Below the pieces are notes generated by a model. The model was not told the DNA's origin. It worked only from the letters and a program-made list of their open reading frames with translations, and searched no databases. Of a stretch of 24,449 nt of DNA, positions 4,024 to 20,710 are shown piece after piece. This stretch comes from a virus: the IMG/VR virus record IMGVR_UViG_3300034096_000471, positions 1 to 24,449 of that record; one strand, given 5' to 3'. Positions within the stretch are counted from its first letter, which is position 1, and each line of letters opens with the position of its first letter. A program made the translations under genes and the position numbers.

Positions 4024-5475
4024 ATGCAATTTCAAGAAAATACCCCGTATGATGTTTTAACCGAGAAATGGAATCCAGTGCTCAATCACGCAGCTCTGGC
4101 TCCAATCGGTGATGATTACCGTAAGAAAGTTACTGCCGTTCTTTTAGAGAACCAAGAACAAGCCATTCGCACCCAGCACCTAACAGAAGATATGTCTTCT
4201 GGTAACTTTGGTGGTCCATCGACCTCTACTGGTTACAATACTGGTGCAGTTTCTGGATATGATCCAGTGCTTATCAGTCTTGTTCGTCGTTCTATGCCAA
4301 ATCTAATGGCATACGATATCTGTGGCGTTCAGCCTATGACAGCCCCAACTGGGTTGATCTTTGCAATGCGTACACAATATGGTAAAGGTACCAATTATAC
4401 TAGTAATGACTACACAGAAGCTCTTTTCCAGGAGCCATTCCCACAGTACGGTGGTTCTGGTTATACCTTAACTGGTCTTTCTGGTGCTGGTGTTACTGCT
4501 GGTTCTGGTCTCAATGCTGACCGTAACATTATTGCTGGTTCATGTGGTGGTGGTACTGCATGGGCTCAAGGTTATGCTGCTGCTGGTATCAACTCATTCA
4601 ATGCCCTTCGTGGTATGTTGACCAATTTTGGTGAAGGTATTGGTTCAGCCAATGCAACATCACCATACCAAGCATTTAATCAAATGTCATTCTCGATTGA
4701 TAGAGTTGCAGTTCAAGCACGTACACGTGCTCTGAGCAGTAATTACACTGTTGAATTGGCACAGGATCTAAAGGCAGTCCATGGTCTAGATGCAGAAGCC
4801 GAACTCGCAAATCTTCTCAGCACTGAAATTCTTGCTGAAATTAACCGCGAACTAGTCCGTACCATCTATTATGTTGCAAAACCAGGATCACAACAAGGTG
4901 ATTTGGGTCTAAAGGGTATGTATAACCTTTCTGGCGACTCTGATGGTCGTTGGTCTGCAGAACGTTTCCGTGGTCTTAGTTTCCAAATCGAGCGTGAATG
5001 CAATGCAATCGCCAAGGAAACACGTCGTGGTAAGGGTAACTTTATCATCTGCGACAGTGATACTGCTGCAGCTCTTGCAATGTCAGGCTTTATGAGTCTC
5101 TCCCCCGGTATTGCACCACAACTAAATGCTGATGACACACAATCAACATTTGCTGGTGTACTTAACGGTAAGGTCAAGGTTTACATTGACCCGTACGCCC
5201 CACTTGGTGCTAACTTCTTTGTAGCTGGCTACAAGGGTGAAAGTGCATATGACGCAGGTCTGTTCTACTGCCCATACGTTCCGCTCCAAATGGTTCGTGC
5301 TGTTGATCCTGCTAGCTTCCAACCACGTATCGGGTTTAAGACTCGTTATGGTATTGTTGCCAATCCGTTTGTACTTAATGCCAATAAAGTTCCGGATGCA
5401 GAAACTCTCTCTGCTGGGTTGAACCAATACTACAGATTGAGCGCAATCGCCAATCTACACGGTAACGGTGCCTGA
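4024..5475 (+). CDS. 23: Major capsid protein gp23
   Basis: HK97-fold major head protein of the T4 group. Conserved blocks appear in the T4 order: PNLMAYDICGVQPM, the Gly-rich variable region, SFSIDRVAVQARTRALSSNY, VELAQDLKAVHGLDAEAEL, EINRELVR, GNFIICDSDTAAAL, FAGVLNGKVKVYIDPYA and FQPRIGFKTRYGIVANPF. Its 483 residues compare with 521 in T4. The N-terminal ~55 residues match the propeptide that gp21 removes; HLTE|DM (cut after residue 55) is the likeliest site, though the residue after the cut is Asp rather than the usual Ala or Gly. There is no gene 24 (vertex paralogue) beside it. A strong terminator follows 28 bases after the stop. Confidence 0.98.
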   Translation: MQFQENTPYDVLTEKWNPVLNHAALAPIGDDYRKKVTAVLLENQEQAIRTQHLTEDMSSGNFGGPSTSTGYNTGAVSGYDPVLISLVRRSMPNLMAYDICGVQPMTAPTGLIFAMRTQYGKGTNYTSNDYTEALFQEPFPQYGGSGYTLTGLSGAGVTAGSGLNADRNIIAGSCGGGTAWAQGYAAAGINSFNALRGMLTNFGEGIGSANATSPYQAFNQMSFSIDRVAVQARTRALSSNYTVELAQDLKAVHGLDAEAELANLLSTEILAEINRELVRTIYYVAKPGSQQGDLGLKGMYNLSGDSDGRWSAERFRGLSFQIERECNAIAKETRRGKGNFIICDSDTAAALAMSGFMSLSPGIAPQLNADDTQSTFAGVLNGKVKVYIDPYAPLGANFFVAGYKGESAYDAGLFYCPYVPLQMVRAVDPASFQPRIGFKTRYGIVANPFVLNANKVPDAETLSAGLNQYYRLSAIANLHGNGA

Positions 5476-5554: not shown

Positions 5555-6091
5555 ATGGCAAATCTAAATTGTTCAGGTAATACAAATCCTCTATATAACA
5601 GTTATTTTTCTTTATTGTTTAATAGAGGTACATCACAATTTGAATTACTATGTCAACGTGTAAATCTTCCAGGAATTTCTGTACCTAGTTTAGTGCAACC
5701 AACAACGTTAGGAACAACAATTCCAGTTCCAAGTATGGTAGCAGCCTTTGCTGATTTATCTGTAGAATTTATAGTTGATGAAAATATGACTAATTGGAAG
5801 TCACTATATTCATGGATACGCAATATTTCTAATATTAAAGATGATAGTAGTAATAATTTAGAATATTATAAATGGCATACAACTGCAACATTAAATATCT
5901 ATTCTGCACCATATACTATTAATGGGTGTAATACACCAATAACTGTAACCTTTATTAATATTGTACCAGTTTCACTTGGTGGACTACAGTTTCAATCAGA
6001 CGCAAGTGATACATCTATTCAAAAAACAACATGTGCCTTTAAATATTCATACTATACAATAACTCCCGATGCACCCAGTGTATTGAGTTAA
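5555..6091 (+). CDS. 3: Tail-tube-fold protein, probable tail completion/sheath stabiliser gp3
   Basis: A 178-residue protein with the layout of the T4 gp19/gp3 tail-tube superfamily: FELLCQRVNLPGISV near the N-terminus, then FADLSVEFIVDENMTNWKSL with the D-E-N...W pattern, and a C-terminal strand pair (VPVSLGGLQFQSDASD, then CAFKYSYYTI). Marine T4-like phages usually carry gp3, which caps the tail tube and stabilises the sheath end, directly after gp23; this order is from memory. A second tube protein (gp19) would be expected before gp20, outside the window, which makes gp3 more likely here than gp19. The gene is transcribed from a late promoter touching its start and ends convergently with the next gene, overlapping it by 4 bases. 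Confidence 0.72.
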   Translation: MANLNCSGNTNPLYNSYFSLLFNRGTSQFELLCQRVNLPGISVPSLVQPTTLGTTIPVPSMVAAFADLSVEFIVDENMTNWKSLYSWIRNISNIKDDSSNNLEYYKWHTTATLNIYSAPYTINGCNTPITVTFINIVPVSLGGLQFQSDASDTSIQKTTCAFKYSYYTITPDAPSVLS

Positions 6092-6762
6092 ATATAGTCA
6101 TTTGGATTATCAGACCAACTTTCTGGGTTATCTGATGGAAGGTTGGGATCATAAGACAATTTATTTGGACCAGGCTTGCCTTTAGATCGTTTTATAGGCT
6201 TAGGTTGCTTCGGAGCCTCTTCGATCAACAAATCCTCTACAGAGGGTTCCTGCTTGTCAGATTCTTCTATTTCTTCTCCGTCATCGTCACCATCTACCAT
6301 AATTTCAGCACCTTCATACGTATCTATCAAATCATTGACAAAATTAACAAAATCTTCATTATTAAAGAGATCTGTCAATAGATGAAGTCCTGCTTCTGGA
6401 CCAAATTCTGTATTTTCTGGGGCACTTGTAATTAATGATTTGGGATCAGTTTCCATTGCAGTATGATATATTTCATACATTTTTTCTAGTTCAACTGTTG
6501 CACTACCAATGTATACGATAACGTGGCGAAATATTGAAACTTCGGAACTTCTTATATTTGAAAGATAATTTGTTAATTTACAATATTCAATCATTTCACC
6601 TAACGCATCTCTCATCATATATGATTCGATTAGAGCAGGCATTTTTATGAATATTTTTTCTGAAGATGCTTCACTTACTAAACCAACAATTTCTTCGCCA
6701 GTAGTAAGTTTAATAACTCTTAGAATTCCACCAAAGGGAGTTTCTTGTACTTCGTCAGCCAT
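6088..6762 (-). CDS. Sm-like N-terminal domain protein with acidic, Pro/Lys-rich tail
   Basis: A 224-residue protein of unknown role. Residues 10-90 (GGILRVIKLTTGEEIVGLV, then KIFIKMPALI) resemble the bent beta-sheet of Sm-like domains, a module often seen in hypothetical proteins of marine T4-like phages. The C-terminal third is acidic (DGDDDGEEIEESDKQEPS) and then basic and Pro-rich (PKQPKPIKRSKGKPGPNK), and looks disordered. The start is well defined by AGGAGGG at 6768-6774, 5 bases before the ATG. It is the last gene of the leftward uvsY-uvsW operon and its stop codon overlaps the convergent gp3-like stop within 6088-6091. RNA binding would suit an Sm-like fold but is only an inference. 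Confidence 0.78.
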   Translation of the reverse strand: MADEVQETPFGGILRVIKLTTGEEIVGLVSEASSEKIFIKMPALIESYMMRDALGEMIEYCKLTNYLSNIRSSEVSIFRHVIVYIGSATVELEKMYEIYHTAMETDPKSLITSAPENTEFGPEAGLHLLTDLFNNEDFVNFVNDLIDTYEGAEIMVDGDDDGEEIEESDKQEPSVEDLLIEEAPKQPKPIKRSKGKPGPNKLSYDPNLPSDNPESWSDNPNDYI

Positions 6763-8821: not shown

Positions 8822-9460
8822 ATGATTATTGATTTACGTGAAATTCCAACCGTATGGATTAATTTAGATTCAGCAACTAAAAATGCTGAAATTATGCAAA
8901 ACAGATTTGAAAAACATGGGTTTCAAAATACTCATAGAAAATCTGGTTTGATTATCCCACCTCCAGAAGGAACACCAAGAGATATATATCATTTTATGGG
9001 GTGTGGTCAATCACATATTGATATACTTGAATCTTTACAGTATACTACACCTCTATTAATTTTAGAAGATGATGTGGAATTTGCTGAAAATTTTAATCCA
9101 ATTATTGATATTCCAGAAGATAGTGATGGAATATATCTTGGTGTATCAAGTGGAAATAGATATTACGCCTCAAAAAGATATAATGAAAATTATTTAAGAA
9201 TTGGTGGAATTCTTGCTGCTCATGCAATTTTGTATGTTACTCCCACATATCGACAAAATATGGCTGATGTAGGTAATCATTGTCTGCATGTGTTGCAACA
9301 ACCATGGGATATGGGTACTGCACAGATTCAATTCTATCATAGAGTTTATGCAACAAATCAACCAATGTTTTATCAATCAAATGATAGAGAAAATGCTAAT
9401 AAATGGCAAGGGTTTACTGATTGTGGTTTAGAGGATAGAAATACGGAATTTCCAATATGA
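8822..9460 (+). CDS. GT25-like glycosyltransferase
   Basis: A 212-residue protein resembling family 25 glycosyltransferases (LPS-type galactosyltransferases). It has the N-terminal INLDSATKN segment, a GCGQSHIDILE motif (residues 60-70, where GT25 has G-C-x-x-S-H) and LILEDDVEF (79-87), which supplies the acidic metal- and sugar-nucleotide-binding residues. The donor is not predictable. It is the first gene of the island, 14 bases after the -10 box of the divergent early promoter. Its last 4 bases overlap the next start (ATGA). There is no membrane segment, so it probably acts in the cytoplasm. Confidence 0.8.
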   Translation: MIIDLREIPTVWINLDSATKNAEIMQNRFEKHGFQNTHRKSGLIIPPPEGTPRDIYHFMGCGQSHIDILESLQYTTPLLILEDDVEFAENFNPIIDIPEDSDGIYLGVSSGNRYYASKRYNENYLRIGGILAAHAILYVTPTYRQNMADVGNHCLHVLQQPWDMGTAQIQFYHRVYATNQPMFYQSNDRENANKWQGFTDCGLEDRNTEFPI

Positions 9461-10245
9461 TTACGTATAACCATATGGGTATGTATGGACGTATGGGAAA
9501 CCAAATGTTTCAATACGCAACCCTATATTCAATAGCAAAAACTAGAGGATATGAATTTGGTGTTCCATATTCATTAAAATCTTCTAATCCATATATTAAT
9601 TTTTGTTTAAATGATGCTTTTAATAATCTTACTGCACAAGATAGTAGTAATATTCTTAATCCAAATAGAGCACAAGAAAGAAATTTTACATATAATGCTG
9701 GTATATTTGGTATTCCTGATCACACTGATATCATAGGTTATTTTCAAAGTGAAAAATATTTTATTGATTATCGACAAGATTTATTAAAAGAATTTGAATT
9801 TACTCCAGAAATTAAAATTCAAGCAGAAATAATACGGCAAATTGGTAAAAAATTAGCAGTTGCACTACATATACGGTTAGGTGATTATACTAATTTAACA
9901 GATAAACATCCTATTTGTACTATGGAATATTATGAAGAGGCATTAAATCAAATTCCAGATAATGCTTTTCTTTATATTATTAGTGACGATAATGAAAAAG
10001 CTGCAGAACTATTTAAAGATTTAAAAAGACCTTTTTGTATTCCTGATACAAAAAATCAAAACATTGATATATGTTTAATGACTATGTGCGATTATCATAT
10101 AATTGCAAACAGTTCTTTTAGTTGGTGGGGTGCATGGTTGAGCGAAAGTAAACAAGTGATTGCTCCTAGTAAATGGTTTGGAGAATCACCAGATATGCCA
10201 AAAAATTGGTCAGATATTTATTGCAAAGATTGGATTATAATATAA
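9457..10245 (+). CDS. GT11 fucosyltransferase (alpha-1,2-type)
   Basis: A 262-residue GT-B enzyme of family 11, which transfers L-fucose from GDP-fucose, normally forming alpha-1,2 links. The hallmark motifs are clear: GRMGNQMFQYA near the N-terminus (11-21), HIRLGDY (138-144, the family's HxR..D motif that contacts GDP-fucose) and ANSSFSWWGAWLS (217-229). The length is close to bacterial GT11 enzymes (about 280-300). The GDP-fucose donor could be made by the Gmd and Fcl homologues in the same window. The start overlaps the preceding stop by 4 bases. This is the most securely assigned transferase in the island. Confidence 0.9.
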   Translation: MITYNHMGMYGRMGNQMFQYATLYSIAKTRGYEFGVPYSLKSSNPYINFCLNDAFNNLTAQDSSNILNPNRAQERNFTYNAGIFGIPDHTDIIGYFQSEKYFIDYRQDLLKEFEFTPEIKIQAEIIRQIGKKLAVALHIRLGDYTNLTDKHPICTMEYYEEALNQIPDNAFLYIISDDNEKAAELFKDLKRPFCIPDTKNQNIDICLMTMCDYHIIANSSFSWWGAWLSESKQVIAPSKWFGESPDMPKNWSDIYCKDWIII

Positions 10246-10285
10246 TGTTATTTTATATTACAGAATATATATCTGGAATTAACTC

Positions 10286-11164
10286 ATGAGACGATTTAAT
10301 GCTACATCTATAACAGACCCTGTAACGTGGGATGGTTGGTCTAACCATGGAGTATATGAATGGTTAAAAAATAATTTAGAAATAAATAATCAAATTATGA
10401 ATTTAATTATTGATAATACAATAATTTCAGATTATCATGATAATGAAGAATGTTATGCAATTTTAATAGAATCTCCAGATATTATTGAATGGTATCATCA
10501 AAATGTCTTTAAAGTAACAGAAAAAAGTTTTTTTGAAATTCTTTCTGAAAAAATGATTACAGGTAATCATAAATTTAAAAAATTGTATACTTTTGATAAA
10601 AGATATGATGGACTACCCAATACAGTAATAATGGGACAAACATGTTTTCCTACTATATCAAATGATAAAATGGATTTGTATACAAACGAAAAAACAAATC
10701 TTTTAACATTTATAACAACTAATAAAACAATGACAACGCTTCATAAATTTAGAGTTTCATTGGCACACAGTTTAATAGAAAAGGGGATACAAGTATTTGG
10801 GCATGGTTATAAATCAATAACTTGTAAGTCTGAAGTTCTCAAAAACACAATGTTTTGTTATGCAATTGAAAATGGAATATATAGAGGATATCATACAGAA
10901 AAAGTTATGGATTGTTTTGTGACTGGATGTATACCAATTTATATCGGGGATCCAGACATAGGTAATCATTATGACACTAGAGGTATGATTATTTTTAAAA
11001 ATACTGAAGAAATGATAAATACAACAATTGAACTTTCAAAGGATTTATATTATCAAATGCTACCATATATTCAAAGAAACTTTGAAATAGCTACTAAAGA
11101 ATATACTCCATCTTTTGAAAAATGTGTAAAATTAATTTATGAGGATATGAATCACAATGCTTAA
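10286..11164 (+). CDS. GT10-like glycosyltransferase (possible alpha-1,3-fucosyltransferase)
   Basis: A 292-residue protein. The C-terminal half carries the donor-binding pattern of family 10 and related GT-B enzymes: CYAIENGIYRGYHTEKVMDC (191-210), where GT10 has Y-x-T-E-K, followed by FVTGCIPIYIGDPDI. The middle region (LLTFITTNKTM, HKFRVSLAHSL) fits the family's strand-helix unit before it. The first 100 residues are divergent. A fucosyltransferase would suit the neighbouring GT11 and the GDP-fucose genes, but another hexosyltransferase of the exostosin or GT10 type is possible. A 40-base gap precedes it, and the stop overlaps the next start by 8 bases. Confidence 0.72.
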   Translation: MRRFNATSITDPVTWDGWSNHGVYEWLKNNLEINNQIMNLIIDNTIISDYHDNEECYAILIESPDIIEWYHQNVFKVTEKSFFEILSEKMITGNHKFKKLYTFDKRYDGLPNTVIMGQTCFPTISNDKMDLYTNEKTNLLTFITTNKTMTTLHKFRVSLAHSLIEKGIQVFGHGYKSITCKSEVLKNTMFCYAIENGIYRGYHTEKVMDCFVTGCIPIYIGDPDIGNHYDTRGMIIFKNTEEMINTTIELSKDLYYQMLPYIQRNFEIATKEYTPSFEKCVKLIYEDMNHNA

Positions 11165-12377
11165 TACTAAAATAAAAATATTAGATGAAAAAATTAAAAA
11201 ATCTTTAGAAGATACCGAACCAAATTGTAATATATTTACAAATATGGATATTGGTTCTGGTTATGAAATGGAAATAGATAGAAGATGTGGTAAAGATATA
11301 AATTATGACCGCGATGTTATGAAAAAATTTTTGTTTATAATGTGGAGATCTTTAAAATTTTCAGAAGAAACCTATAATAAAGTGTATGCTTCTCTTGATT
11401 TTAATGATTTTATAGAAATAAAAAATAATCAAATAGATTATGCTTCAATTATTAAAAATTGTAAACATTATACAAATTGTTATAAAAAACCAAAATATAA
11501 TCTTATAATTCCAGTAAAAAATAGAGAAGATCATTTAAAAACATTTTTAAAAAATGCTATTCACTTGTTTAAATCCAATCCAGATTGGTGTCTTACAATT
11601 ATTTTTCAAGAAGATAACACAGAAAATTTTGAAAAAACTTTATCTCTTGTATCTGATTGTCCAAATGTTCATGTTATTGATATGCCACATAATGATGAAT
11701 TTATTTTACAATATGGGAATAACATGAACAGATCATTGTGTTATAATGTAGCATCTATGTTTGTAGAATGCGACTTTCAAATAAATCATGATGTAGATCT
11801 TTTATTTGGACAAAATTATATTGATAATATAGAAAGAAAAACAAAAAATGAATCTTTTATGTGGTTACAACCATATAGAGGAAGTAGAGTTATTTCTTTA
11901 ACTGATGAACAAACAAAATATTTTAAAAGTGAAATAGAAAAGGGAAATTCACTTCCAATTCATATAATAGATATTCCCCCAACCAGAAATACTCCATATG
12001 CAGTAGGTTCAACTGGTGGATCTATTGTAGTAAAATATGAAGTATTTAAAGAAATTGGAGGATATGATCCTGAAATTGTTTGGGGATATGCTCCAGAGGA
12101 TATTATTTTTTGGTTAAAATTAGAAATTTATTTTAAAACGTATAAATATACAGAACAATATAAGTCAGAACCATTTTTTTCTAATACTGTATTTTCACAC
12201 GATACAGATGTTGAATTGTTTCATATGTATCATCCGTTAACAGAAACAGATAAAAGATATCCATATTTTCCTTTATTTATTTCTAATTGGCTTATGAATG
12301 TTGCAACAGAAGAAGAACACAAAAAATGGTTGGAGGTTTCACGTGAAAAATTTTACAATAATGATGCTGGGATATAA
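11157..12377 (+). CDS. GT-A glycosyltransferase, GT2/GT7-like
   Basis: A 406-residue protein. About 110 N-terminal residues of unknown function precede a GT-A domain: NLIIPVKNREDHLKTFL (115-131) is the nucleotide-binding start, NHDVDLLF (210-217) holds the DxD metal motif (D212, D214), and GGYDPEIVWGYAPEDIIFWL (301-320) matches the acceptor-side G-W-G-x-E-D motif of GT7-type galactosyl- or N-acetylgalactosaminyltransferases. Transfer of galactose or a related sugar from a UDP donor is therefore plausible, but the substrate is unknown. It overlaps both neighbours (8 bases upstream, 35 bases downstream with the chosen GTG start). Confidence 0.8.
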   Translation: MLNTKIKILDEKIKKSLEDTEPNCNIFTNMDIGSGYEMEIDRRCGKDINYDRDVMKKFLFIMWRSLKFSEETYNKVYASLDFNDFIEIKNNQIDYASIIKNCKHYTNCYKKPKYNLIIPVKNREDHLKTFLKNAIHLFKSNPDWCLTIIFQEDNTENFEKTLSLVSDCPNVHVIDMPHNDEFILQYGNNMNRSLCYNVASMFVECDFQINHDVDLLFGQNYIDNIERKTKNESFMWLQPYRGSRVISLTDEQTKYFKSEIEKGNSLPIHIIDIPPTRNTPYAVGSTGGSIVVKYEVFKEIGGYDPEIVWGYAPEDIIFWLKLEIYFKTYKYTEQYKSEPFFSNTVFSHDTDVELFHMYHPLTETDKRYPYFPLFISNWLMNVATEEEHKKWLEVSREKFYNNDAGI

Positions 12378-13086
12378 TTCAGTTGATTGGATAAGAAAAT
12401 CAGTAGAAAGTGCATTAAAACAAAATTATACAAATTTTCAAGTAATTGCAGTAGACGCACATACTAATGATGGTACATATGAAATATTAAAAGAATATGA
12501 ATCTGATTCAAGATTTAAATTAATAAGAAATGATGAACGCAAGTATGTTTCAGAAAATGTATGTATTGCAGTAGATAATGCTCCAGATGACAGTATAATG
12601 TGTGCTTTGGATTTTGATGATTGGTTGTTACGAGACGATGTACTTTCTATTTTAAATGATACATATAATGAAGATGTATGGATGACATATGGAAATTATG
12701 TTGATTACTATTCTAAAAATTTAACAGTAGATCATAGAGCGTTAAGTGATTATCCAAAAGATATAGTTGAGAATAATAAATTTAGATCAGATAAATGGAG
12801 ATCAACGCATTTACGAACGTTTAAAAAAAGCCTATTTCAAAAAATAAATAGAAAAGATTTTATAGATCCAGTAACTGGAACCTGGTATAAAATGTCAGGT
12901 GATATGGGATATATGTTTCCGATGTTAGAAATGGCTGGACACCGCCACAAATTTATTTCTACTATTCTTTATAGTTACAATAAAACTAATCCAATTAATG
13001 ATGATAAAGTATCATTAGATGAACAACTAAGATGTGAATTTTCAATAAGAAATTCTCCTATTTACTCAAAAATTGAATCATTATAA
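12343..13086 (+). CDS. GT2 family glycosyltransferase
   Basis: GT-A fold transferase of about 247 residues. It starts with the family's first strand (FTIMMLGYNSVDWIRKSVES), then VIAVDAHTNDGTYEIL, and has the metal motif in LDFDDWLLRDDV (D90, D92, D93). SGDMGYMFPMLEMAG lies near the acceptor side. The frame is open from ATG 12298, but that start would add 15 residues unlike the family and overlap the previous gene by 80 bases. I chose GTG 12343 because GGAGG at 12332-12336 sits 6 bases before it and the product then begins directly with the first beta strand. Donor and acceptor are unknown. Confidence 0.82.
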   Translation: MKNFTIMMLGYNSVDWIRKSVESALKQNYTNFQVIAVDAHTNDGTYEILKEYESDSRFKLIRNDERKYVSENVCIAVDNAPDDSIMCALDFDDWLLRDDVLSILNDTYNEDVWMTYGNYVDYYSKNLTVDHRALSDYPKDIVENNKFRSDKWRSTHLRTFKKSLFQKINRKDFIDPVTGTWYKMSGDMGYMFPMLEMAGHRHKFISTILYSYNKTNPINDDKVSLDEQLRCEFSIRNSPIYSKIESL

Positions 13087-13092
13087 AAATTT

Positions 13093-14046
13093 ATGAAAAG
13101 AATAATTATATTAAACACACCAGAAGTACCAATTTTTGGAACACATTTATTTCATGTAAAAAAATTATGTGAAGGATTTAAATGGAATGGAATTGATGTT
13201 ATTGAAATTAATACTCTAGAAAGCTTATATTCTATTAATTTAAATGATAAAGATTTTGTATATCTGTCAAATTATATTATAAACAGAACTGATGATCCAA
13301 TATTTTCAACATGTGTAAAATCAAATGATTTAATTGAAAAATTATTTAATTATTTTTTTGAAACAAAATGTATTCCTATATTTTGGTTTTGGCATTCTTT
13401 TATAGATAATCAACTTATGAGTATATTGCATAATCGATATATTCTTACAGGTGAGCATTTTAGATCAAAACCACAATCCTTATCACATTTAAAAGCATGG
13501 GATCTTCAGAATAAAATACATAATTATGTACCATCTACTTTTTCTGCTGCAATACATCCTGATAAAATTGGAACTTTTACTAGAAATAAAAAATCTTTAA
13601 GTAATTTTGTAGGATGTTCATACAAAACAGAATGGTTGAATAAATTAATGTTAAGAGATAATGAAGTCCATTCTATATTAATAACACCACCCTTTATTTC
13701 AGAAGAAAAAAGGGTAAATTCTTTTTTAGATTCAGTTACTTCATTGGGGTTTCATGCTGAAGCAAATATAACTAATAATGTTGTTGTTGAAAGAGTATTT
13801 GAAGGTTTAGCATACGGAAATGTAGTTATTTCTGATAATCCTTGTTGCACAAATATGACTGATGGTATTATTGAATACGTTAATTCTTATGAGAGTCTTA
13901 TTGACTTAATACATAAAGCGTGGTATAATAAAGATTATCGAATTAACAAACAAGAAATGGGAATGAAATGGTGTAAACAATATGGAACATACAAACCAGT
14001 TGCTTATAATTTTATACAAAAAGCAGATGAAATAAATGTATATTAA
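13093..14046 (+). CDS. Putative GT-B glycosyltransferase
   Basis: A 317-residue protein with two alternating alpha/beta halves. The C-terminal half contains VVVERVFEGLAYGNVVISDN (about residues 234-253), typical of the nucleotide-sugar-binding region in GT1/GT4-like and CgeB-like transferases (E-x-x-x-x-G-x-V-x-I-S-D). The N-terminus (RIIILNTPEVPIFGTHLFHV) looks like the first Rossmann strand with a Gly-His turn. It lies 6 bases after the GT2 gene among other transferases. The exact family is not certain; the assignment rests mainly on the C-terminal motif and context. Confidence 0.65.
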   Translation: MKRIIILNTPEVPIFGTHLFHVKKLCEGFKWNGIDVIEINTLESLYSINLNDKDFVYLSNYIINRTDDPIFSTCVKSNDLIEKLFNYFFETKCIPIFWFWHSFIDNQLMSILHNRYILTGEHFRSKPQSLSHLKAWDLQNKIHNYVPSTFSAAIHPDKIGTFTRNKKSLSNFVGCSYKTEWLNKLMLRDNEVHSILITPPFISEEKRVNSFLDSVTSLGFHAEANITNNVVVERVFEGLAYGNVVISDNPCCTNMTDGIIEYVNSYESLIDLIHKAWYNKDYRINKQEMGMKWCKQYGTYKPVAYNFIQKADEINVY

Positions 14047-14091
14047 AATAAGTAACTTACACATATATTCTAAACAATTGGAAAAACTCAT

Positions 14092-14859
14092 ATGATTATT
14101 AAAGATGCCATTATACCATTTCACCCAAAAGATATTTCAACTTTACCTATGTGTTGTGAATCTTTAAAAAATATTTTAAATGTTGAACGAATTATATTAA
14201 TTTCATCAATAAATCCAAATATTAATGGAACCCAATTTATTAATGAAAAAGATATATCTGAAATAATTTCATTACCACAGTTAACTCAAATTTGGAATGA
14301 AAAAAATCCAAATCTATCCTATAGAAGTGGTTGGATATACCAACAACTTATAGAATTAGCAGTTCCACAAATTATAACTGATGTATCAGATGATTATATT
14401 GTATGTGATTCAGATATTGTATTTTTAAATAACCCATATAATGAAGTTTTAAATAATATTTTTCCTTTTAATAGTGCTTTTAATGGAGAATATCATTTAC
14501 CATATAGATGTACTTATGAAAGGTTAATGAAAGAACCAGCAAAATCTGGTATTTCATTTATAAACCATCATTTAGTTACTAATAAAAATTATTTAGCAGA
14601 ATTAAAGTTACTAATTGAAAGTAGAAACGGTAAACGATGGGATATTGCTTTAATCGAATCATTGGATTATTTTGAAGGATCTGGATTTGCATCTGATGAT
14701 TTATATGGTGATTGGATGTTTACTTATCATCCTGATAAAATGTTACAGATTCCAATAAAAATTTTGGATATATCTCATATTCCTTCTCCACATGATCTTA
14801 TACATTTAACTGAAAGTGGTTTTCATATTGTTAGTTCACAGGAATACAAAAGAGGATAA
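14092..14859 (+). CDS. DUF6492-like putative glycosyltransferase
   Basis: A 255-residue protein resembling the DUF6492 group of uncharacterised GT-A-like enzymes found in polysaccharide clusters. Visible features are YRSGWIYQQLIELA (77-90) followed by DDYIVCDSDIVFLNNP (100-115), in which D106-S-D108 is the likely DxD metal site. The tail has FASDDLYGDWMF and a His-rich end. A transferase role fits the cluster; no substrate can be given. A 45-base gap precedes it, in which I see no promoter I would trust. The stop lies 5 bases before the next ATG, whose ribosome site AGAGGA overlaps this gene's end. Confidence 0.68.
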   Translation: MIIKDAIIPFHPKDISTLPMCCESLKNILNVERIILISSINPNINGTQFINEKDISEIISLPQLTQIWNEKNPNLSYRSGWIYQQLIELAVPQIITDVSDDYIVCDSDIVFLNNPYNEVLNNIFPFNSAFNGEYHLPYRCTYERLMKEPAKSGISFINHHLVTNKNYLAELKLLIESRNGKRWDIALIESLDYFEGSGFASDDLYGDWMFTYHPDKMLQIPIKILDISHIPSPHDLIHLTESGFHIVSSQEYKRG

Positions 14860-14864
14860 TTAAT

Positions 14865-16013
14865 ATGAATATTAAATTAGTAAAAGATACTATAAGTAAT
14901 GGTGAAATTGATGATCTTTGTAAATGGTTATCAACATATCCAAAATTAACAAAAGGATTATTAACAGAAGAGTTTGAACAAAAATGGTCTGAGTGGCAAG
15001 GAACCAAATATTCAGTATTTTTAAATTCTGGTTCTTCAGCTAATTTAGCTATGTTGTATGCATTAAAAATATCTAATAGATTAAAAAATAATAAAATCAT
15101 TTTACCATGTGTATCTTGGGTGACCACAATAAGTCCAGCAATTCAATTTGGAATGGAACCCATATTATGCGATACAGATATAGAAACACTTGGACTAGAT
15201 ATTGAATGTTTAGAAAAACTTTGTAAAGAAAATAATCCAGCATGTATAATGCTAGTACATGTATTAGGAATACCAAATAAATTAAAAGAAATAAAAGATA
15301 TTTGTAAAAAGTATGATATAATACTACTAGAAGATTCTTGTGAAAGTGTTGGATCTATAATTGATAATAAAAAAACTGGAACTTTTGGTTTAATGTCTTC
15401 ATTTTCTACTTATTATGGTCACCACCTTTCAACTATTGAAGGTGGATTTGTTTGTACCGATGATCATGAACTTTATGAAATATTAAAATCAATTAGATCA
15501 CATGGTTGGAGTAGGGATTTATCGGAAAAAACTAAAAAGAATTTACAAATGAATCATGATATAGATGATTTTAAAAATCTTTATACTTTTTATTATCCGG
15601 GTTTTAATTTAAGAGCAACTGAGGTTCAAGCTTTTTTAGGAATTAATCAATTAAAAACTGTAGATACAAAAAATAATAAAAGATATAAAAATTTGTTAAA
15701 ATATGATGAATTGATAGAAAATAGTTACTGGAAATACAAACCTTCAGGTTTTGTTAGTAATTTTGCATATCCAATAATACACCCATTAAAAAGTAAATTA
15801 GTAGAATCTCTTATAAAGGCTAAAATTGAATGTAGACCATTAATATGTGGTAGTATGTCTAGACAACCTTTTTATTATAAAAAATACGGATTTAAAATGT
15901 ATCCATTTTCAGATATAATACATGATTATGGATTGTATCTACCAAATAACCCTGATATGTCAGAAAATGAAATAGAATATGTTGCAAATATAGTTAATGA
16001 AAATATAAACTGA
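14865..16013 (+). CDS. ColD-like GDP-4-keto-6-deoxymannose 3-dehydratase (DegT family, His for Lys)
   Basis: PLP/PMP enzyme of the DegT/DnrJ/EryC1/StrS family, 382 residues. Family landmarks are LNSGSSANLAMLYAL (53-67), LEDSCESVGS (155-164, with Asp157 for the pyridine nitrogen) and STYYGHHLSTIEGG (181-194). In ordinary family aminotransferases the last motif holds the Schiff-base Lys; here that position is His186. This replacement defines the 3-dehydratases ColD and E1, which use PMP to remove the C3 hydroxyl of a 4-keto-6-deoxy sugar. ColD acts on GDP-4-keto-6-deoxymannose, the product of Gmd, which is also encoded here, and the next gene is an Fcl/ColC-type reductase. GDP-L-colitose (or a related 3,6-dideoxyhexose) is therefore a likely product. 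GDP linkage is inferred from context. Confidence 0.83.
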   Translation: MNIKLVKDTISNGEIDDLCKWLSTYPKLTKGLLTEEFEQKWSEWQGTKYSVFLNSGSSANLAMLYALKISNRLKNNKIILPCVSWVTTISPAIQFGMEPILCDTDIETLGLDIECLEKLCKENNPACIMLVHVLGIPNKLKEIKDICKKYDIILLEDSCESVGSIIDNKKTGTFGLMSSFSTYYGHHLSTIEGGFVCTDDHELYEILKSIRSHGWSRDLSEKTKKNLQMNHDIDDFKNLYTFYYPGFNLRATEVQAFLGINQLKTVDTKNNKRYKNLLKYDELIENSYWKYKPSGFVSNFAYPIIHPLKSKLVESLIKAKIECRPLICGSMSRQPFYYKKYGFKMYPFSDIIHDYGLYLPNNPDMSENEIEYVANIVNENIN

Positions 16014-16020
16014 GGATAAT

Positions 16021-16962
16021 ATGGAAAAAAATTCAAAAATTTTTGTAGCCGGTCATAATGGATTAGTTGGTTCTGCTTTAGTGAGAAAATTAAAAAATGA
16101 GGGATATGACAATATAATAACACGATCCAAAAGTGAATTAGATCTTAGAGATCAATTATCTGTATCATATTTCTTTTCTAAAGAAAAACCCGAATATGTT
16201 TTTTTGAGTGCAGCTAAAGTTGGTGGTATAGGATGGAATCAACAATGTCCTGCAGATTTTATATATGATAACTTACAAATACAGAATAACGTTATTCACT
16301 ATTCTTATATAAACAATGTAAAAAAATTATTATTTTTGGGTTCGGCGTGTATATATCCTAAAATCACACCACAACCTATAAAAGAAGAATATCTTTTGAC
16401 CAGTGAACTTGAACCAACAAATGAAGGTTATGCTTTATCTAAAATTGTTGGTTTAAAGATGTGTCAGTATTATAGTAAACAATATGGATTTAATGCTATC
16501 TCTTTAATGCCAACAAATTTATATGGTAATAATGATAATTTTAATATTGAAAAATGTCATGTGATTCCTGCAATGATACGAAAATTTATTGATGCTAAAG
16601 AATCAAATAAAACCAGTGTTACATGTTTTGGAGATGGAACTCCAACAAGAGAATTTTTATATTCTGATGATCTTGCAGATGCTTGTTTATTTTTAATGAA
16701 TAGTTACGATTCATCTGATATAATAAATGTAGGATCTAATGAAGAAATCACTATTAAAACTTTAGCAGAAACAATTAAAAAACATGTTGGATATTCTGGA
16801 GAAATATTATGGGATTCAAGTAAACCAAATGGAACGCCACTAAGAAAAATATGTAATAAAAAAATAAATAATTTAGGATGGTATTCTCAGACATCTCTAG
16901 ATAATGGAATAAAATCAACAATAGATTGGTTTAATAAAAATTACCAAAAGGCAAGAAAATAA
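16021..16962 (+). CDS. fcl: GDP-L-fucose synthase-type 3,5-epimerase/4-reductase (Fcl/WcaG or ColC-like)
   Basis: Extended short-chain dehydrogenase, 313 residues, converting GDP-4-keto-6-deoxymannose to GDP-L-fucose with NADPH. The NADP motif is GHNGLVGS (11-18). The catalytic set matches E. coli Fcl with an offset of one: S108, Y137 and K141 (YALSK), plus the epimerisation residues C110 (SACIYP) and H180 (CHVIPA). The N-D-N-F-N motif before H180 is also typical. It directly follows the ColD-like gene (7 bases) with the ribosome site GAGGA before the ATG, so it may instead, or also, act as ColC and reduce the dideoxy intermediate to GDP-L-colitose. Sequence alone cannot decide between these. 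Its stop overlaps the next start as TAATG. Confidence 0.92.
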   Translation: MEKNSKIFVAGHNGLVGSALVRKLKNEGYDNIITRSKSELDLRDQLSVSYFFSKEKPEYVFLSAAKVGGIGWNQQCPADFIYDNLQIQNNVIHYSYINNVKKLLFLGSACIYPKITPQPIKEEYLLTSELEPTNEGYALSKIVGLKMCQYYSKQYGFNAISLMPTNLYGNNDNFNIEKCHVIPAMIRKFIDAKESNKTSVTCFGDGTPTREFLYSDDLADACLFLMNSYDSSDIINVGSNEEITIKTLAETIKKHVGYSGEILWDSSKPNGTPLRKICNKKINNLGWYSQTSLDNGIKSTIDWFNKNYQKARK

Positions 16963-17528
16963 TGATTTCATATTCGCAACCAGGATCAAAACAAGACTTA
17001 TGGGTACTAAAAACTCTTAATAATCAAAAAAATGGAATTTTTATAGATATTGGTTGTGCTACTCCATTTTATTTAAGTAATACTGCTTCTTTAGAAAAAT
17101 ATCATAATTGGACTGGACTTGCTTTTGATATTAATTTTTCTAATTCTGATTATATTAATAGTGATTTAAATGAATATAGGGGAACTGAATATAATAATTG
17201 GAATTTATCAAGAAAAAACACAAAAACATATGAAGGAAATGCTTTAACTTTTGATTATTTAAAAATTTTTAAAGAAAATAATATTCCTCCAATTATTGAT
17301 TATTTGTCAATTGATTTAGAGCCACCTGAAGTTACTTTAGAAGCATTTAAAAAATTACCACATGATGTATATAAATTTAAAACAATAACATTTGAGCATG
17401 ATGCATATGCACGATCAAAAGAATGGTTAGATCAAACTAGAACTATTATAACAAGTTATGGTTATCTATTGGTAGAAACTACAGAACAAGATGATTTTTA
17501 TATATTATCTGCACAACAATTAAAATGA
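16962..17528 (+). CDS. FkbM-like SAM-dependent methyltransferase
   Basis: A 188-residue protein with a class I methyltransferase core: GIFIDIGCATPFYLSNTASL (25-44) is motif I for SAM binding, GLAFDI (52-57) gives the acidic residue after strand 2, and IDYLSIDLEPPEVTLEAF has the D-x-E pattern typical of the FkbM family. Short FkbM-like enzymes are common in sugar clusters, where they O-methylate glycans. It lies between the Fcl gene (1-base overlap) and the epimerase (4-base overlap), so it is clearly part of this operon. The substrate is unknown; a sugar hydroxyl is the best guess. Confidence 0.75.
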   Translation: MISYSQPGSKQDLWVLKTLNNQKNGIFIDIGCATPFYLSNTASLEKYHNWTGLAFDINFSNSDYINSDLNEYRGTEYNNWNLSRKNTKTYEGNALTFDYLKIFKENNIPPIIDYLSIDLEPPEVTLEAFKKLPHDVYKFKTITFEHDAYARSKEWLDQTRTIITSYGYLLVETTEQDDFYILSAQQLK

Positions 17529-18430
17529 ATTACTTAATAACAGGTGGATGTGGTTTTATCGGTTCACATATTGTTGATAGGCTAATAAATGAAGGTCATA
17601 AAGTTACAGTGATCGATAATTTATCTTCTGATGCACATGAGAAATTTTATTATAATTTCAAAGCATCATACTATCATTATAGTGTAATTGATTATGAACA
17701 ATGTGCTGATGTATTTAATAAGACTAAACCAGATTATGTCTTGCACTTGGCAGCAGAAGCACGTATTCAAAATTGTATAGCAGACCCAACTTTAGCATTT
17801 CAAACCAATTTAACTGGAACGCTTAATATTCTTGCTTTAGCTAAAAAGTATAAAGTAAAACGACTGGTTCTTTCTACTACTTCTGCAATATATGGTTTAA
17901 CTAATACAGGGTTGTTAAACGAAGAAATGTCACCAGATTGCTTAAATGCTTATTCTTTGAGTAAATATCAAGCTGAACAAGTTTGTAAAATGTATAGTAA
18001 CATGTATAATTTAGACACAGTTTGCTTACGTTATTTTAATGTATATGGTCCACACCAACCAACAAAAGGTCCATATGCTCCTGTAATTGGTGTATTCAGC
18101 AGACAAAAACAAGCAGGACAAAAGTTAACTATTGTTGGAGATGGTAAGCAAACTAGAGACTATGTTCACGTATCTGATGTAGTTGATGCAAATATAAAGG
18201 CAGCAATTCATTCTAATAAATTAAATGGAGAAGTTTTTAATGTTGGAACTAGTAAAAATTATTCTGTAAACTGGATAGCATCTCAGATTGAAAATAATCC
18301 TAATAATATAATGTATATACCACCAAGAGTAGGAGAAGTTCATGATACGATTGCAGATAATTCAAAAATTATTACTACTTTAAATTGGACTCCTACAATT
18401 AGTTTAGATGAATATATTAAATGTATTTAA
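17525..18430 (+). CDS. NAD-dependent sugar-nucleotide epimerase/dehydratase (GalE-like)
   Basis: Extended SDR enzyme, 301 residues. It begins with the Rossmann motif ITGGCGFIGSH (G7, G10, G13). D31 in VIDNLSS suggests NAD(H) preference. HLAAEAR, LSTTSAIYG and YSLSKYQAE (Y143, K147) follow, then LRYFNVYGPHQ, and DGKQTRDYVHVSDV near the substrate site. This is the pattern of UDP-glucose/UDP-GlcNAc 4-epimerases and relatives, so it probably interconverts UDP-hexoses for a neighbouring transferase, but a 4-epimerase or 4,6-dehydratase of another sugar cannot be ruled out. It is the last gene of the first sugar block, 39 bases before gp55, and that gap holds the gp55 promoter. Confidence 0.88.
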   Translation: MNYLITGGCGFIGSHIVDRLINEGHKVTVIDNLSSDAHEKFYYNFKASYYHYSVIDYEQCADVFNKTKPDYVLHLAAEARIQNCIADPTLAFQTNLTGTLNILALAKKYKVKRLVLSTTSAIYGLTNTGLLNEEMSPDCLNAYSLSKYQAEQVCKMYSNMYNLDTVCLRYFNVYGPHQPTKGPYAPVIGVFSRQKQAGQKLTIVGDGKQTRDYVHVSDVVDANIKAAIHSNKLNGEVFNVGTSKNYSVNWIASQIENNPNNIMYIPPRVGEVHDTIADNSKIITTLNWTPTISLDEYIKCI

Positions 18431-18435
18431 TTATC

Positions 18436-18463
18436 TTGCAATACCTTAAATATAGGATATAAT
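18436..18463 (+). promoter_or_regulatory. Early promoter for gene 55, abutting its GTG
   Basis: TTGCAA at 18436-18441 (4 of 6 match to TTGACA), a 16-base spacer, then perfect TATAAT at 18458-18463. The predicted start, 7 bases after the -10 box, is 18470, the G of the gp55 start codon. It would let the late sigma factor be made early without reading through the sugar island. Confidence 0.72.
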
Positions 18464-18469
18464 ATATCT

Positions 18470-19039
18470 GTGAAAAACCCTCGTAAAAAGAAAGCATCAT
18501 CAGACGCAGATTACGTAAGTAATACTGACCTATACGCTGCTTTGATTGATTATCGTAAAAAGACTGATGAAGCAGAGAATGCTGGAAGAAAAAAACCCAA
18601 GTTACCAGATTTTATTGGTGAATGTATTTTAAAGATAGCATCTAGACTTTCATATCGTCCTAATTTTGCAAATTACCCATATAGAGAAGAGATGGTATCA
18701 GATGCCGTTTTAAACTGTATAACCTATATTGGTAATTTTGATCCAGCAAAGTCAACCAGCCCGTTTGGTTATTTAACCCAAATATGCTGGTTTTCTTTTG
18801 TTCGTATTATAAACAAAGAAAAGAAAGAAAAATATACTCAATACAAATATGCTGAACAACAAAATGATAAAGATTTTCATCATTGGTTCAATAAAGTATA
18901 TGCTGGTGTTGATATTGGTCGTAGAGATTTCTTTGGACTTACAGACTTAGATATGGATAGATTTGATATTATGTGTACCCCAAAGAAAACTAAAGGCAAA
19001 CGAACTCGCAAATCTAAAAAACCAACATTAGACATATGA
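18470..19039 (+). CDS. 55: Late-transcription sigma factor gp55
   Basis: Phage sigma factor that binds host RNA polymerase and recognises TATAAATA late promoters, helped in T4 by gp33 and the gp45 clamp. Its 189 residues compare with 185 in T4. Conserved parts follow the T4 order: YVSNTDLYAALIDYR at the N-terminus, YPYREEMVSDAVLNCITYIG with NFDPAKSTSPFGYLTQICW (sigma region 2-like, -10 recognition), then FVRIINKEKKEKYTQYKYAE. The C-terminus is basic (KKTKGKRTRKSKK). The start is GTG; no alternative Met occurs before the conserved region. It sits alone between two blocks of sugar genes, and its stop overlaps the next ATG by 4 bases. Targets (TATAAATA boxes) are present in this window. Confidence 0.95.
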   Translation: MKNPRKKKASSDADYVSNTDLYAALIDYRKKTDEAENAGRKKPKLPDFIGECILKIASRLSYRPNFANYPYREEMVSDAVLNCITYIGNFDPAKSTSPFGYLTQICWFSFVRIINKEKKEKYTQYKYAEQQNDKDFHHWFNKVYAGVDIGRRDFFGLTDLDMDRFDIMCTPKKTKGKRTRKSKKPTLDI

Positions 19040-19680
19040 AAAATTTATTAATTCCTAAAAAAACAATATTTGAAAAACAAAGATTTGGTAATAACCGAGA
19101 TGGTGGTTATATCTTTGCAAAAACTCCAATTAAAAATCAAACAATTTATGGATTTGGTGTAGATAATGATATTACATGTGAAAGTGAATTACAAAAATAT
19201 TTTTCTGGAACAGTAAATTTATTTGATGGTACGTGTGATTTTAATAAAGAGTTACCTTTAAATATTACCTATAATAAAATAAATATTACAAAAGACAATA
19301 TTAATGATATTTTAAATTCAAATTCTCCTATGATTGTAAAAATGGATATAGAAGGATCTGAATATGAATGTTTACATTGTATGGAAGAAAACATATTACA
19401 AAATATTGAACAATTAATTATAGAATTTCATTTACATCATTTTAGTCTTGATTATTTTTATAATATAATTCTTAAGTTAACTAAAACGCATAAAATATTT
19501 CATATTCATGGAAATAATTGTTGTGGTCTATTAGATGGAATTCCAACAGTAGTTGAATTATCGTTTATTAATAAAAATTTATGCAATTTAGACGAAAATG
19601 ATAATAATATGTATCCAGATTCAAAATTAGATTTTAAAAATCTTGATGATAGAGATGAATTGTTTTTTAAATGGTGGTAA
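19036..19680 (+). CDS. FkbM-like methyltransferase (second copy type)
   Basis: A 214-residue protein. [11 protein letters not shown] and [17 protein letters not shown] (37-53) form the N-terminal part and SAM motif region, and [14 protein letters not shown] (100-113) is the FkbM hallmark D-I-E-G-S-E. A His-rich stretch follows ([13 protein letters not shown]). It is not closely similar to the 188-residue methyltransferase in this window, so it is not a simple duplicate. It starts inside the gp55 stop (ATGA) and ends 7 bases before Gmd. Glycan or sugar O-methylation is the likely role from family and context; the substrate is unknown. Confidence 0.8.
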
Positions 19681-19687
19681 TTTATAT

Positions 19688-20710
19688 ATGAAAAAAATAG
19701 CACTTATTACTGGAATTTCTGGACAAGACGGAAGTTATCTTACGGACCTGTTGTTATCTAAAGGATATGAGGTTCATGGATTAATTCGTCGAAGTTCTTC
19801 ATTTAATACTGGAAGATTGGAACATCATATTGAAAATGAAGAAGTTTATAATAAAACATTATTTCTTCATTACGGAGATATGAATGATTTTACAAGTATA
19901 TACAATATTCTTTTAAAACACAATCCAATTGAGATTTATAATCTTGCAGCACAGAGCCATGTAAGACTATCCTTTGACATGCCTGTATATACTGGAGAGG
20001 TGGATGCGATTGGAACAACTAATATTTTAGAAGCTATAAGATCTTATCAAGATCATAGTGGTAATAAAATTCGTTACTACCAAGCATCTAGTAGTGAAAT
20101 GTTTGGAAAAGTTCAAGAAGTTCCTCAAAAAGAAACTACTCCTTTCTATCCTCGATCACCATATGGTTGTGCTAAAGCATACAGTCATTATATGACTGTA
20201 AATTATAGAGAAAGTTATAATATGCATGCCTCATGTGGTATTCTATTCAATCATGAAAGTCCCCGTCGAGGTGAAACTTTTGTAACTAGAAAAATTACTA
20301 GGGCTGTAGGTAGAATTTCTCAGGGTTTACAAACAGAATTGAGATTAGGAAATCTAGATTCTTTTAGAGATTGGGGGTATGCAGGCGATTATGTTGAAGC
20401 AATGTGGTTAATGTTACAACAAGATCTTCCTGATGATTATATTATTGCAACAGGAAAAATGATTTCTGTAAAAGAATTTTGTGAATATGCATTTAGTTTA
20501 GTTGGTCTAGATTATAAAAAGTATGTAATCATAGATCCAAAATATTTCAGACCTACTGAAGTTGATGAATTATTAGGTGATTCTAGTAAAGCTAAAGAAA
20601 AATTATTATGGGAACCAAAAACTGATGTATACAGTTTAGCAAAAATGATGGTTGATGTGGATACCAATCTGGCAAAAGAAGAATTGTTAATTCGTAATTT
20701 AATTAAATAA
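19688..20710 (+). CDS. gmd: GDP-mannose 4,6-dehydratase
   Basis: Converts GDP-D-mannose to GDP-4-keto-6-deoxymannose, the shared precursor of GDP-fucose, GDP-colitose and GDP-perosamine. It has the family signature throughout: [19 protein letters not shown] at the N-terminus, [29 protein letters not shown] (S135 and E137), YGCAKAY (Y159, K163), [18 protein letters not shown] and [13 protein letters not shown]. The 340-residue length is near the usual 345-370. The frame is open from 19643, but ATG 19688 begins at the first strand and avoids overlapping the methyltransferase, so I chose it. It is split from the ColD-like and Fcl genes by gp55 and lies 4 bases before gp47. Confidence 0.95.

Follow-up and report, generated by a model that had tools for sequence, protein, structure and literature searches.

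The open reading frame at 14865–16013 encodes a member of the ColD family and is read as a ColD-type, PMP-dependent nucleotide-sugar 3-dehydratase that would act within a route from GDP-mannose to GDP-L-colitose, a reading to which a probability of roughly 0.78 was given. Family membership was established by the sequence ranking, the tree and its AU tests, and the fold; a histidine at the position of the catalytic lysine, the lack of the Fe-S motif and the linkage to Gmd and Fcl were also shown. The same evidence upholds the initial annotation of this DNA, which had proposed a ColD-like 3-dehydratase and not a Lys-type enzyme. The window, which is the whole stretch of DNA analysed, is a virus record of 24,449 bases.

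Assignment of the protein to the ColD family

The protein matched the generic DegT family of Pfam (PF01041) with 220 bits, and no NCBIfam model matched the open reading frame above its cut-off. The PHROGs label is 'aminotransferase' (PHROG 3139) and many phage annotations carry such labels, as the initial annotation had warned in stating that a generic aminotransferase label would hide the chemistry. Ranking against PDB sequences gave ColD as the best match at 231 bits, followed by E1 (145 bits), the best aminotransferase (115 bits) and perosamine synthase (92 bits). A careful tree of 64 proteins grouped the query with ColD of E. coli O55 and ColD-like proteins with support of 99/92, while the E1-types came together at 100/99 and all Lys-types stood apart at 100/100. 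On the tree check proposed in the initial annotation, the query therefore fell outside the Lys-types, and His186 was not misaligned. Placement among the Lys-types was rejected by the AU test (p 1.4e-5) as well as by the tree, as was placement among the E1-types (p 3e-33).

The active-site motif STYYGHHLSTIEGG contains the adjacent residues His186 and His187. The first of the pair aligns with His188 of ColD in the Schiff-base lysine column, which is where the initial annotation had located it, and is conserved in relatives; the same column is altered in the ColD mutants 3b8x (H188N) and 2r0t/3gr9 (H188K). Residues W85, D157, S181, H186, N248, E322 and R324 correspond to W88, D159, S183, H188, N248, E329 and R331 of ColD. 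In an alignment of 38 relatives the HH..T.EGG block was invariant or nearly so. The large sets of relatives were gathered in part with the HH..T.EGG pattern, so that the uniform histidine within them arises partly by construction. The histidine was also present in relatives collected independently of the motif, namely the tblastn phage matches L006–L008, the loci L003–L005, which were retrieved by patterns drawn from elsewhere in the query, and those distinct Fcl-anchored loci that had a recognisable ColD-like protein. This, together with the conservation of the block, indicates that His186 is not a chance substitution.

A sugar aminotransferase that operates despite the histidine, or a 4-aminating PMP enzyme, is a highly improbable reading of the gene. 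It is favoured by membership of the DegT family and by the behaviour of SpnQ, which transaminates when its reductase is absent, but ColD and E1 did not do so under those conditions (PMC8987622). Identity as a Lys-type sugar aminotransferase was rejected, as the catalytic lysine is missing from the site and a histidine stands at that position, and the tree and AU test exclude the Lys-types.

Both E1 and SpnQ require a 4-Cys [2Fe-2S] site, which ColD does without (PMC8987622). When the cysteine columns of E1 were aligned with the query the only one filled was C159, which is also present in ColD, and the later E1 cysteines were absent. With this motif lacking and the NCBIfam RfbH model giving 197 bits against a cut-off of 423, identity as E1/RfbH was rejected. 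Proteins of E1/RfbH type with Fe-S cysteines do occur on phage contigs (L173 13844–15175, L202 12573–13904 and L213 12512–13840). The L173 protein scores 434 bits, above the RfbH cut-off, and L213 contains Gmd and Fcl with no ColD-like gene in the flank searched.

The predicted structure of the protein had a pLDDT of 94.5 and its top 12 structural matches were all ColD chains, with TM-scores of 0.87–0.91. Aminotransferases ranked close behind, with TM-scores of up to 0.86 by query length, so similarity of fold is not enough to tell the two classes apart. The sole low-confidence stretch of the model was the loop at 188–190 adjoining the catalytic histidine, which may possibly reflect the absent cofactor and second subunit.

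Compared with ColD (WbdK) of E. coli (PDB ids 2gms, 2gmu, 3b8x, 2r0t and 3gr9), the phage protein has the same fold, histidine for lysine, no Fe-S motif, matching active-site residues and a nearby Gmd and Fcl/ColC-family short-chain dehydrogenase/reductase (SDR). It differs in having 37% identity to the characterised enzyme, in its position within a separate subclade, in Gly185 replacing Ser187, in its location within a phage genome and in a partner SDR that is Fcl-like, not ColC. E1/RfbH, the CDP-4-keto-6-deoxyglucose 3-dehydrase, also has the histidine and the fold, but contains the Fe-S motif and forms a separate clade. GDP-perosamine synthase and the other Lys-type DegT aminotransferases share the fold and cofactor family with the query, but have a catalytic lysine and lie in their own clade.

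The glycan island and its genes

The window belongs to an uncultured T4-like phage, as identified by PHROG matches to the portal, head protease, major head protein, tail tube, helicase, late sigma factor, SbcD/SbcC-like subunits and sliding clamp. The major head protein was at most 53% identical to those of cyanophages. L002, an identical contig, and L003, a 55% relative, also occur in IMG/VR. The ColD-like gene lies in an A+T-rich glycan island at 8822–20710, with a GC content of about 25–31% compared to 33–42% in most flanking core genes. The island contains glycosyltransferase-like and methyltransferase-like genes, two SDRs, Gmd and the ColD-like gene, and is interrupted only by the gene for the late sigma factor (Table 1). 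On another T4-like contig, L111, a ColD-like gene (5582–6745) has the genes for the late sigma factor and gp47 on either side, which places it in the genome region that the gene occupies in the window.

Table 1. Coordinates of the features identified in the window
Feature	Position	Strand	Details
gp23-like major head protein	4024..5475	+	T4-like phage context
GT11 fucosyltransferase-like; candidate colitosyl- or fucosyltransferase	9457..10245	+	30% to O55 cluster alpha-1,2-fucosyltransferase
GT10 fucosyltransferase-like	10286..11164	+	PF00852, 28 bits, cut-off 23.9
GT2-like glycosyltransferase	12298..13086	+	weak matches to glycosyltransferase models only
DUF6492-like protein	14092..14859	+	directly upstream of ColD gene; 19.8 bits, below cut-off 22.9
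ColD-like PMP-dependent GDP-4-keto-6-deoxymannose 3-dehydratase (predicted)	14865..16013	+	ATG start, 382 aa
Active-site motif STYYGHHLSTIEGG	15405..15446	+	residues 181-194; His186 codon 15420-15422, replaces PLP lysine
Fcl (WcaG-like) SDR	16021..16962	+	7 bp downstream of ColD gene; probable C5-epimerase/C4-reductase (ColC role)
FkbM-like methyltransferase	16962..17528	+	19.7 bits, below cut-off 22.7
GalE-like short SDR (UDP-glucose 4-epimerase-like)	17525..18430	+	
gp55-like late sigma factor	18470..19039	+	inside glycan island
FkbM methyltransferase	19036..19680	+	28.9 bits, above cut-off
Gmd, GDP-mannose 4,6-dehydratase	19688..20710	+	TIGR01472 509 bits, cut-off 415; 52% to E. coli Gmd

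The location within an A+T-rich island could suggest a recently acquired or decaying passenger gene with no function in the phage. Such an explanation is very unlikely, given that the open reading frame is intact and full-length with its catalytic residues conserved, and that the cassette is kept across many divergent viral contigs. No genes for making GDP-mannose were found in the window, nor were tRNA genes, which were sought as a clue to the host. Sites resembling the T4 late promoter (ATAAATA) were not above chance in the window, with 14 found and 20.5 expected.

Substrate, partner reductase and predicted product

The presence of Gmd in the same window as the ColD-like gene, noted in the initial annotation, was confirmed by the NCBIfam match given in Table 1. 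Among distinct viral loci Gmd was found near the His-type enzyme in 47/69, compared with 4/41 control loci (Fisher p 1e-9), and an Fcl-like gene in 52/69 compared with 8/41 (Fisher p 1e-8), the control being distinct viral loci anchored on a single Lys-type DegT family. Most loci were searched over a flank of about 7 kb, and those at contig ends over less, which makes these counts lower bounds; about a third of the 69 viral loci had no Gmd inside the flank. The product of Gmd is GDP-4-keto-6-deoxymannose, and this is therefore the probable substrate of the ColD-like enzyme. As nucleotide specificity is not readable from the sequence here and identity to ColD is low, a 3-dehydratase for a CDP- or dTDP-linked sugar, like E1 or SpnQ, might be considered. 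This is improbable in view of the strong linkage to Gmd, the product of which is GDP-linked, the missing 4-Cys Fe-S motif and the rejection of an E1 grouping by the AU test.

We infer the reaction, its substrate and product, the acceptor and any benefit to the phage as follows, with the ColD-type mechanism taken from PMC8987622. The phage Gmd would convert host GDP-mannose into GDP-4-keto-6-deoxymannose, the ketone of which would be held by the ColD-like enzyme through PMP. His186 would remove a proton from C4' of PMP, causing the C3 hydroxyl to depart. Hydrolysis of the adduct would yield PLP and an enamine sugar, which on loss of ammonia would give GDP-4-keto-3,6-dideoxymannose, and PMP would be regenerated by glutamate. 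The Fcl-like SDR would then most likely form GDP-L-colitose through C5 epimerisation and C4 reduction, and the GT11 or GT10 enzymes would move colitose onto a glycan of the host surface or onto part of the virion. The O55 cluster alpha-1,2-fucosyltransferase, a relative of the GT11 enzyme, is presumably the colitose transferase of that cluster, judging from the O55 O-antigen.

Counting against this reading are the 37% identity to ColD and the separate subclade, Gly185, the low-confidence loop, the WcaG-like reductase, the lack of GDP-mannose-making genes in the window and the viral loci in which no Gmd was found. The weakest step of this route is the reductase. The initial annotation had described the neighbouring gene as an Fcl/ColC-type enzyme, of which the Fcl part stands, with 47% identity to WcaG, and the ColC part does not by sequence, with 34% identity to ColC of E. 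coli O55; identity as a true ColC was rejected by these values and by the tree. The SDR retains the Ser/Tyr/Lys, Cys109 and His179 positions. Its close viral relatives (at least 60% identity), retrieved by the Fcl gene and counted after removal of near-copies, lay directly beside a His-type ColD in 18/19 cases, at a distance of no more than 150 bp, and Gmd was present in 18 of the same 19. Because of this adjacency the SDR probably performs the ColC step despite its likeness to WcaG.

In the SDR tree ColD-like genes had neighbours of three types: true ColC, WcaG-like, which includes the SDR of the window, and a divergent, nearly all-viral clade. The true ColC type was found beside ColD-like genes in O55, Prochlorococcus L036 and L068, and near one in L075. 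In bacteria, the slot that abuts ColD on its upstream side is filled by a WcaG-like SDR in L064 and L072 and by a ColC-type SDR in L068. The reductase step may thus be interchangeable, with the Fcl of the window serving as a colitose synthase and perhaps also in GDP-fucose synthesis. The nearly all-viral clade comprises 37 divergent Fcl-like reductases (for example L091 8149–9048, L102 6060–6992 and L003 7066–7989), every one having a ColD-like gene beside or close to it, a linkage that is partly by construction since most of these loci were retrieved through ColD. This clade is a possible new type of GDP-3,6-dideoxyhexose synthase.

On gene context GDP-L-colitose is the likeliest predicted product. 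A less likely but appreciable alternative is that the 3-dehydratase leads to a different sugar, with Fcl making GDP-L-fucose separately and the GalE-like SDR or a host enzyme reducing the ColD product to another 3,6-dideoxyhexose. The greater similarity of Fcl to WcaG than to ColC, the presence of both GT10 and GT11 enzymes and the location of the GalE-like SDR within the same island would all fit, but the adjacency of close viral Fcl relatives to ColD and the slot shared by both SDR types in bacteria argue for L-colitose.

The relatives of the window Fcl (63–71% identity) adjoin ColDs that are just 29–35% identical to the query, and the close relatives of the query ColD (50–59%) mostly adjoin divergent Fcls (28–38%). 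This mismatch means that the window pairs genes from two phage lineages, as would be expected if the pairing itself were selected.

Distribution and biological meaning

The sugar-making cassette recurs in many aquatic phages and a range of bacteria. The cyanophages ACG-2014f and S-CAM7 share the gene order Gmd-Fcl-ColD-GT11 and the HH motif; their ColD proteins are 34–35% identical to the query, belong to a different ColD-like subclade and are annotated as aminotransferase or CDP-sugar dehydrase. A viral protein on L210 (9754–10914) is nearer to true ColD than that of the window, with 49% identity to ColD of E. coli O55, to which it is sister in the tree (100/100). ColD-like enzymes are also present in SAR11 (Pelagibacterales) and Prochlorococcus AG-402-K14 (L020, L030, L033, L036–L039 and L041), and that of L036 has a true ColC-type partner. 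In four loci (L109 5866–7002, L118 5874–6974, L120 5905–7017 and L122 5898–6998) a Lys-type DegT aminotransferase gene lies directly upstream of the His-type ColD, the two genes touching in most cases, an arrangement that could yield a 3-deoxy-4-amino sugar.

Gmd, Fcl and fucosyltransferases have been recorded in cyanophages as cell-wall genes (PMC9602691), and at least one published ocean survey of phage metabolic genes left out contigs bearing islands of this kind, classing them as lipopolysaccharide islands (PMC11360552). Among the papers searched for phage-encoded colitose, ColD or 3-dehydrase, no report was found. The chemistry is known and the cassette was already deposited, in ACG-2014f and S-CAM7, under misleading labels; the interest lies in its spread among phages and its swapped reductases.

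Colitose and other 3,6-dideoxyhexoses are known to define the antigens of bacterial lipopolysaccharides. By producing such a sugar, a phage could alter the range of phages or predators able to recognise the cell it infects, or could coat its own particle. Because 'aminotransferase' labels hide this chemistry, naming the members of this His-type clade 3-dehydratases would put right the annotation of hundreds of viral genes and allow the phages that make dideoxy sugars to be predicted. More tentatively, a pathway leading from GDP-mannose to a 3,6-dideoxyhexose may be encoded by many aquatic phages, T4-like and other, which would use it to remodel glycans of the host surface or to decorate their virions. 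In that case Fcl-like reductases of different clades would carry out the ColC step interchangeably, among them the nearly all-viral clade, perhaps a synthase type of its own.
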